Shown here piece by piece: positions 12,257 through 27,777 of a stretch of DNA of 64,000 nucleotides. The translations under genes were made by a program, and so were the position numbers. The stretch lies in contig NZ_CP086106.1 in assembly GCF_016765655.2 (NCBI RefSeq), positions 5,292,501 to 5,356,500 on the forward strand, written 5' to 3'. The notes under the pieces were generated by a model, which was not told the origin of the DNA, did no database searches, and was given only the letters and a program-made list of their open reading frames with translations. This DNA is from Skermanella mucosa (GTDB lineage Bacteria > Pseudomonadota > Alphaproteobacteria > Azospirillales > Azospirillaceae). The number at the start of each line of letters is the position of its first letter. The first letter of the stretch is position 1.

Positions 12257-12790
12257 TCAGGCCGAGATCGAGTTCAGCAGGGGTCGAGAAACGCCGAAAG
12301 CGGCTCCGCCACCCGAACCGGCCAACCGCGGCGAGGGCGTCGGCACGCCGATGGGAATGGCCTGGACAGCGGGACCGGACACCGGACTGGCGGAGGCGGC
12401 GATGCCGCCGGCCGGCTCGGCCTCCGATACTCCGGCCGAGGGCTGGCCGAAGGCGACCCGGATCGGTTCGCCCTGCCGCGCCGGCTTCGTCGCGTCGGCT
12501 TGCTCCTGCTCCTTCGACCGCTCGGCGATGGCCCGGTTCCGATAGGCTTCAAGCTGCTTTTCGGAGGGATACTGAACCAGCACCTTGCCGTCGGACCCGT
12601 CGCGATACTGGAGCACGGTACGCTGCGTCTCGCTGTCGAGACGGACGACCGGGCTGAAATACCGGGATGGTTCCGCCGCGGCACCGGCGGTCGGATCGGC
12701 TTCCTGCTGAGCCGTCCGCGGAACTGACTGCTGGGCGGGCGCGCGTACCGCGGCCGGTCCCTGCAGTGTATTTCCGATGGCGTCCATCAT
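12257..12790 (-). CDS. Small FlaG-like/hypothetical flagellar-locus protein
   Basis: A 177-aa protein rich in Ala, Pro and Gln with no signal peptide or membrane segment. The only structured-looking part is at residues 42-85 (PSRYFSPVVRLDSETQRTVL, then DGKVLVQYPSEKQLEAYRNR). This resembles the FlaG pattern of a beta-strand pair (D-x-E-T-x-x-x-V followed by V-x-Q-x-P-S-E). FlaG proteins affect filament length in other bacteria. The resemblance is short and the flanks are low complexity, so the function is only a guess from motif and place. It is divergent from the sciP-like gene and shares its 312-base upstream region. An ATG at 12787 is an alternative start. Confidence 0.6.
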   Translation of the reverse strand: MMDAIGNTLQGPAAVRAPAQQSVPRTAQQEADPTAGAAAEPSRYFSPVVRLDSETQRTVLQYRDGSDGKVLVQYPSEKQLEAYRNRAIAERSKEQEQADATKPARQGEPIRVAFGQPSAGVSEAEPAGGIAASASPVSGPAVQAIPIGVPTPSPRLAGSGGGAAFGVSRPLLNSISA

Positions 12791-12827
12791 AGCTGACCCA
12801 ATACTGGTGATCCATGTGCATGGTCCC

Positions 12828-12911
12828 GACTCTTGCGGGAGGAGTCAAGGGATTCTTAACTGCTGGCCGAAGAATCCCCCAGGCACTATACCGTTTGTTA
12901 ACATGTGACTC
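12828..12911. promoter_or_regulatory. Cluster of five GANTC (CcrM) sites upstream of the sciP-like gene
   Basis: GANTC occurs at 12828-12832, 12842-12846, 12851-12855, 12872-12876 and 12907-12911, with a sixth at 13081-13085. Random expectation for 84 bases is well below one. GANTC is the target of the cell-cycle methylase CcrM in alphaproteobacteria, and methylation state controls several CtrA-network promoters in Caulobacter. The gap 12791-13102 also has two TTAAC half-sites (12856-12860 and 12899-12903), a small hairpin CTCAC-GAA-GTGAG at 12909-12921, and no gene. Confidence 0.55.
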
Positions 12912-13102
12912 ACGAAGTGAGGGAAAGTTATTCAGCCCACGGACTTATGCACCATCGCACCGCCCGCGAACCCCGTCCGTCGGGTTACCCTACCCCTTTG
13001 GCGCGACAAGATTTCCGCGAGTTAGCAGTTTTTTAAATTGGCACTCGGATACTGACGCCCGCTGCCGACGGATGAGTAAGGATTCGCGAGGTAACCTGTC
13101 GC

Positions 13103-13573: not shown

Positions 13574-13589
13574 TTAACCATCCATAAAC
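13574..13589 (+). promoter_or_regulatory. CtrA-like box and overlapping palindrome upstream of fliF
   Basis: TTAACCATCCATAAAC matches the Caulobacter CtrA consensus TTAA-N7-TTAAC with one mismatch (TAAAC for TTAAC). The identical half-sites TTAAC-N6-TAAAC occur upstream of ctrA (26951-26966). It overlaps a perfect 15-base palindrome AACGAAAATTTCGTT (13587-13601). It lies 116 bases before the fliF TTG start, so it could activate the flagellar basal-body operon in a cell-cycle-dependent way. Confidence 0.55.
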
Positions 13590-26865: not shown

Positions 26866-26906
26866 GATGTGAGATATCTATACGTGTATTAACCGTGTTG
26901 GCGGAT

Positions 26907-27003
26907 GATTCGTCGGCAAATGCAGCGAAAACGAAGATATGCAGGAATGATTAACTTTCTGTAAACTTTGCTAACGGTAGCATTAAGCTGAATCGTCTGT
27001 TAA
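26907..27003. promoter_or_regulatory. fliI/ctrA divergent control region with CtrA-like box and two GANTC sites
   Basis: TTAACTTTCTGTAAAC at 26951-26966 matches TTAA-N7-TTAAC with one mismatch and has the same half-sites as the fliF box. GANTC sites are at 26907-26911 (GATTC) and 26990-26994 (GAATC). Further TTAA tetramers occur at 26983-26986 and 27000-27003. In Caulobacter, ctrA is autoregulated through CtrA boxes and its P1 promoter is silenced by GANTC methylation. The same elements are visible here, about 100 bases before the ctrA ATG. Confidence 0.6.
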
Positions 27004-27063
27004 TATGTGTATCATCTGGTTCGGCAGGGTTGTGTTCCTGCCCATCAACGTCGGGATGTCGCC

Positions 27064-27777
27064 ATGAGGGTTCTGCTGGTCGAAGACGACTCCTCGGTCG
27101 CAAAGAGTATTGAATTGATGCTGCATTCCGAGGGCTTCATCGTCGATTCCACCGATCTCGGTGAGGATGGGCTGGAGATCGGAAAGCTGTATGACTACGA
27201 TATCATCATCCTGGACCTGATGCTGCCGGACATCGACGGCTATGAGGTCCTGCGCCGGCTGCGGTCCGCCCGGGTCACCACGCCGATCCTGATCCTGTCC
27301 GGCCTGTCGGAGCTGGACCACAAGATCAAGGGGCTGGGGGTCGGCGCCGACGACTACCTGACCAAGCCCTTCGACAAGCGCGAACTGATCGCCCGCATCC
27401 AGGCCATCGTCCGCCGCAGCAAGGGCCATTCGGACAGCGTGATCCGGACCGGCCGACTGACGGTCAACCTGGACACCCGCACCGTCGAGGTGGACGGCCA
27501 GCCGCTTCACCTGACCGGCAAGGAATACGGCATCCTGGAACTGCTGAGCCTGCGCAAGGGCACCACGCTGACCAAGGAGATGTTCCTGAACCATCTCTAC
27601 GGCGGCATGGACGAGCCGGAGCTGAAGATCATCGACGTCTTCGTCTGCAAGTTGCGCAAGAAGCTCGCCCAGTCGACCAGCGGCGACAACTATATCGAGA
27701 CGGTCTGGGGCCGCGGCTACGTGCTGCGCGATCCGCAGGAAGAAGCGGTCCCTCAGAAGGCTCAGGCGGCGGGGTGA
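27064..27777 (+). CDS. ctrA: Cell-cycle/motility response regulator CtrA
   Basis: A 237-aa OmpR-type DNA-binding response regulator. The receiver has DD at 8-9, the phospho-acceptor D51 ([20 protein letters not shown]) and K near 104 ([10 protein letters not shown]). The winged-helix output domain contains [20 protein letters not shown] and [20 protein letters not shown], close to invariant in CtrA proteins and allowing a confident name. The ATG at 27064 gives [10 protein letters not shown] as in Caulobacter. An upstream in-frame ATG at 27007 was rejected. In Rhodospirillales CtrA mainly controls motility and chemotaxis and is not essential, which is known for the group. Phosphate is expected from ChpT (33907-34533). 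Confidence 0.96.

Follow-up and report, generated by a model that had tools for sequence, protein, structure and literature searches.

A cluster of GANTC sites between sciP and a divergent gene in Skermanella

In Caulobacter crescentus, a GANTC site placed between the -10 and -35 elements marks one class of timed promoters, and more than half of the GANTC-bearing timed promoters also have sites for other master regulators (PMC4287350). The promoters ctrA P1, podJ P2, mipZ and tipF carry GANTC at or near the -35 or -10 element, often together with CtrA sites (PMC4287350, PMC3667746), and the binding of GcrA is enhanced by GANTC methylation (PMC3667746). The closest described system is the sciP promoter of Brevundimonas subvibrioides, which combines TTAG and TAAA CtrA half-sites with two GANTC sites (-71 and +144) and a GcrA peak; sciP is no longer expressed once the CtrA site is mutated, and GcrA is insufficient by itself to drive the gene (PMC7987155).

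The locus described here lies in Skermanella mucosa, within a chromosomal stretch of 64 kb (64,000 nucleotides, G000:C1:5292501-5356500) termed hereafter the window. Like the Brevundimonas promoter it has a CtrA site with a TTAG half and GANTC sites near sciP; unlike that promoter, with its two GANTC sites and CtrA as the proven driver, it presents a five-site cluster that appears to sit on a divergent promoter. A preliminary description held that such a cluster at sciP had not been emphasised before; the idea is not entirely new, since GANTC sites and bound GcrA had already been studied at the sciP promoter of B. subvibrioides (PMC7987155). The cluster belongs to the known kind of promoter listed above for Caulobacter, with the difference that one or two sites are found there and five in 84 bp here.

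All three regulators are encoded in the 7.84-Mb genome, ccrM and gcrA elsewhere on the same chromosome and ctrA in the same window as sciP. CcrM exceeds the PF01555 cut-off and matches NF050803 at full length (E 4e-184, 611 bits, under the model cut-off of 830); its gene follows rnhB (RNase HII), and CcrM was found in every member of the Azospirillaceae searched. The gcrA product matches PF07750 over the cut-off. A search of the literature on methylation in Skermanella returned nothing relevant.

Density and rarity of the GANTC cluster

As first noticed, five GANTC sites representing all four central bases span 12828-12911 in one intergenic stretch (Table 1, sites A to E). A sixth, site F, was absent from the preliminary description and shares with them the 312-bp intergenic region 12791-13102.

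Table 1. Features around the GANTC cluster, in window coordinates; fractions are counts among five Skermanella genomes
Feature	Position	Strand	Remarks
Divergent gene (177 aa), core with weak likeness to FlaG	12257..12790	-	in all Skermanella; core only in Arenibaculum
Possible -10, GACCAT	12820..12825	-	17 bp from TTGACT; weak, 3/6 to consensus; invariant 5/5
Site A, GACTC	12828..12832		spacer of predicted minus-strand promoter; kept in 4/5
Site B, GAGTC	12842..12846		overlaps predicted -35 (TTGACTC on minus strand); 5/5
CtrA-type box TTAA-N7-TTGA, plus strand TCAAGGGATTCTTAA	12845..12859	-	half-sites invariant in 5/5, N7 varies
Site C, GATTC	12851..12855		within N7 of CtrA-type box; 4/5; missing in G004, half-sites kept
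Site D, GAATC	12872..12876		3/5; pairs with site C as inverted repeat
Site E, GACTC	12907..12911		2/5
CtrA-type box of sciP, TTAG-N7-TTAA, TTAGCAGTTTTTTAA	13022..13036	+	5/5; most Rhodospirillales relatives at ~-65 to -140
Site F, GATTC	13081..13085		sciP leader, 22 bp before ATG; 5/5
sciP (CtrA inhibitor), 100 aa	13103..13405	+	PF06627 and NF051866 over cut-off
ctrA	27064..27777	+	NF045991, 425 bits, cut-off 350

The window holds 98 GANTC sites against 289 in dinucleotide shuffles, and GANTC is therefore generally avoided in this DNA, as published for Alphaproteobacteria, in which overall avoidance goes together with intergenic enrichment as a rule (PMC3973325). In a stratified 1.264-Mb sample of the same chromosome, which deliberately included the stretch with ccrM, the density was 1.52/kb, with 1.35/kb in coding and 2.44/kb in intergenic DNA as delimited by a crude gene caller, a 1.8-fold difference. 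The expectation for 84 bp is thus 0.12 (genome rate) to 0.20 (intergenic rate), in agreement with the initial estimate of less than one, and the pointwise Poisson probability of at least five sites is 2e-7 to 2e-6. This value needs tempering because of multiple testing: some 0.02 such clusters are expected over the 557 intergenic regions sampled and, by extrapolation from these, about 0.1 genome-wide. No other sampled intergenic region (n = 557) had more than three GANTC in 84 bp. Across the whole genome, about 52 loci hold GANTC triplets with gaps of at most 30 bp, and only two of these reach five sites in 84 bp, namely the sciP-side cluster and the region upstream of ccrM, in a listing blind to a fourth or fifth site more than 30 bp away from a triplet.

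Alignment of the intergenic regions from five Skermanella genomes (67-94% identity to the window) gave GANTC counts of 6, 6, 7, 4 and 3, against 0.76 expected. The individual sites are not conserved beyond random positions of the same shape (P 0.17-0.20, five genomes); sites B and F fall in blocks that are conserved anyway, and sites D and E are common to the closer relatives only. The cluster is real, rare and genus-limited, and it probably has a regulatory role.

The opposite case is that the sites have no role as a cluster, and that general intergenic enrichment, overlapping elements and chance sites in a young genus account for them, one or two being forced by TTGACTC and the CtrA-type box. 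The 1.8-fold intergenic excess, the rule in Alphaproteobacteria (PMC3973325), agrees with this, as do the restriction of D and E to closer relatives, the background level of site retention and the 0.1 clusters expected genome-wide. Against it stand the finding that ccrM has the only equally dense cluster and the fact that all five Skermanella stay GANTC-rich even where the flanks have diverged to 67% identity. We regard this absence of a role as somewhat unlikely.

The divergent gene and a predicted leftward promoter

Only sciP had previously been named as the gene downstream of the cluster. A divergent minus-strand gene was found in 5/5 Skermanella genomes. In Arenibaculum, too, its core (YFSPVVRLDSETQRTVLQYRD...) stands divergent near sciP. 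Its likeness to FlaG is weak: the gene reaches 14.9 bits with the FlaG model NF006465 (cut-off 154), Pfam FlaG matched just the Arenibaculum core (12.5 against a cut-off of 23.8), and no Pfam family fits the gene itself. The predicted promoter beneath the cluster likely belongs to this gene.

We assign the cluster to this predicted leftward promoter because it lies 38-121 bp from the start of the divergent gene and 192-275 bp from that of sciP, and because of the sequence elements found beneath it. On the minus strand the CtrA-type box reads TTAAGAATCCCTTGACT and runs into a -35-like TTGACT (12843-12848), which is spaced 17 bp from GACCAT, and sites A and B overlap the predicted -35/-10 region. 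The alignment places these elements in invariant blocks, one at the start of the minus-strand gene with GACCAT and one at 12842-12859 (GAGTCAAG..ATTCTTAA) that includes TCAA-N7-TTAA; in G004 the GATTC inside the box is lost with both half-sites intact. A third block, the sciP leader from about 13010, contains TTAG-N7-TTAA. The case for two promoters draws on the two CtrA-type boxes (at most one mismatch) in the 312-bp intergenic region, compared with 8 in the whole 64 kb.

The reading that we favour, with a probability of about 0.5, is that the promoter of the neighbouring gene, responsive to CtrA and possibly to methylation, carries the cluster, and that sciP is separately driven by CtrA. The intergenic region would then consist of two back-to-back cell-cycle promoters. 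Rightward, sciP would have a promoter to itself at about 13022-13065, with CtrA activating through TTAG-N7-TTAA. Leftward, the promoter under the cluster would drive the FlaG-like gene, its CtrA-type box overlapping TTGACT and its GANTC sites distributed over the -35, the spacer, the interior of the box and the stretch immediately upstream. The two promoters would share CtrA as their main regulator, and methylation might modulate the leftward one, where CcrM methylation of the GANTC adenines would most likely tune the promoter directly or through GcrA; any effect on sciP would be at most secondary.

The GANTC richness of this region in all five genomes argues for a regulatory action on the leftward promoter, for which the timed Caulobacter promoters with GANTC in the -35/-10 interval (PMC4287350) and the stimulation of GcrA binding by methylation (PMC3667746) serve as precedents. 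The promoter itself is weakened as a candidate by its poor -10 and by a sigma-70 scan without a minus-strand hit at the cluster, and the role of methylation by the background level of GANTC retention and by the extended GcrA motif YGAKTCK, which fits 0/6 sites; Brevundimonas shows no YGAKTCK preference, so that the motif is not a universal requirement. If the cluster works as proposed, CtrA control and methylation would be joined on one divergent promoter beside sciP, and the way in which clustered methylation sites influence a promoter could be studied outside the Caulobacter lineage.

Sites C and D form a perfect 9-bp inverted repeat, GGGATTCTT-N12-AAGAATCCC, and the cluster may instead be the operator of a different protein, such as a MucR-like shield, or a repressor acting on this repeat, that keeps the local GANTCs unmethylated. 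MucR does shield certain GANTCs in both Caulobacter and Sinorhizobium (PMC5172544), yet two of the five species have lost the repeat, and we consider an operator very improbable.

sciP and its own CtrA-type box

The gene called SciP-like at first is a true sciP, its product matching NCBIfam NF051866 at full length (129.3 bits, cut-off 100) as well as PF06627, with 98% identity to that of Skermanella stibiiresistens and 95% to that of S. aerolata. It is followed by fliF and fliG, with an FlbD-type sigma-54 activator further downstream. Another CtrA-type box, TTAACCATCCATAAA, was seen at window 13574-13588, about 130 bp upstream of fliF. A candidate sigma-54 site at 13038-13055 (TTGGCAC...), inspected by eye in the alignment, was rejected, its GC element being missing and its GG lost in G004.

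We ascribe sciP transcription to its own box because the upstream regions of 64 sciP genes, taken from relatives ranging between Azospirillum and Parvibaculum, contain 69 CtrA-type boxes (at most one mismatch), against 3.3 expected; TTAG-N7-TTAA is present in most of the 64. Nearly all boxes share a single form, TTAGnnnTTTnTTAA, and the majority stand 65-140 nt ahead of the estimated start. This form is strikingly constant across Rhodospirillales and Parvibaculales, and tighter than TTAA-N7-TTAA. The same upstream regions hold 68 GANTC sites against 47 expected, which is no more than the ordinary intergenic excess; none of the 64 has the cluster outside Skermanella, and many sciP genes of Azospirillum lack any GANTC within 350 bp but retain the CtrA box. 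Read from these boxes, the comparison shows the predicted CtrA control of sciP as an ancient, order-wide feature, and GANTC enrichment as a genus-level addition.

According to the preliminary description, replication-dependent methylation of the cluster would set the timing of sciP expression. This proposal gains something from the common intergenic region, from the GANTC at 13081 conserved in the sciP leader of 5/5 genomes, and from the GANTC sites and bound GcrA at Brevundimonas sciP. Other points speak against it. The cluster is farther from sciP than from the divergent gene and, seen from sciP, stands beyond a separate CtrA box that is conserved across the order; it is confined to Skermanella, where its sites are retained at background level; and in Brevundimonas mutation of the CtrA site by itself abolishes sciP transcription, GcrA alone being insufficient (PMC7987155). 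Timing of sciP by the cluster is accordingly improbable, and the back-to-back promoters remain our preferred reading.

The ccrM array and other GANTC-dense loci

The promoter and leader of ccrM carry seven GANTC in about 146 bp (G000:C1:1911615-1911760), and most Azospirillaceae genomes examined have 4-7 upstream of the gene. Their positions align around TTGACGnCGACTC-N6-GACTCATTGTC, with an upstream GACTC-N4/5-GACTC pair. This array resembles the sciP-side cluster in its dense GANTC around a TTGAC-type -35; it differs in being family-wide with aligned positions and in lacking a CtrA-type box (none with up to one mismatch across the 260 bp analysed upstream of ccrM in Azospirillaceae genomes), whereas the sciP-side cluster occurs in Skermanella only and includes such a box. 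Caulobacter ccrM is activated by CtrA and has two GANTC sites in its leader. The array suggests methylation feedback on ccrM and, judged by its conservation, is better supported than the sciP-side cluster, which makes it the better subject for studying such feedback.

Four GANTC in 83 bp lie with DnaA-like sequences in the intergenic region from hemE to a PPDK-regulator (RP001-like) gene (G000:C1:6208312-6208394). The Caulobacter origin occupies this place, and the present locus, at a distance of about 0.9 Mb from sciP, is a putative chromosome origin. Another four sites fall within 98 bp immediately before a flagellin gene, some 2 kb to the left of the window start. As a speculation that we think rather unlikely to hold in full, the densest CcrM-site clusters of Skermanella might mark a few cell-cycle loci (ccrM, sciP with the divergent gene, the hemE-side putative origin and the flagellin promoter), and the ccrM gene of Azospirillaceae might respond to its own methylation state by way of a conserved array of several sites, in place of a CtrA site. 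Upstream of ctrA (window 26900-27064), GANTC sites at 26907 and 26990 accompany CtrA-type boxes at 26951 and 26989, a layout like that of an autoregulated, methylation-sensitive ctrA promoter.
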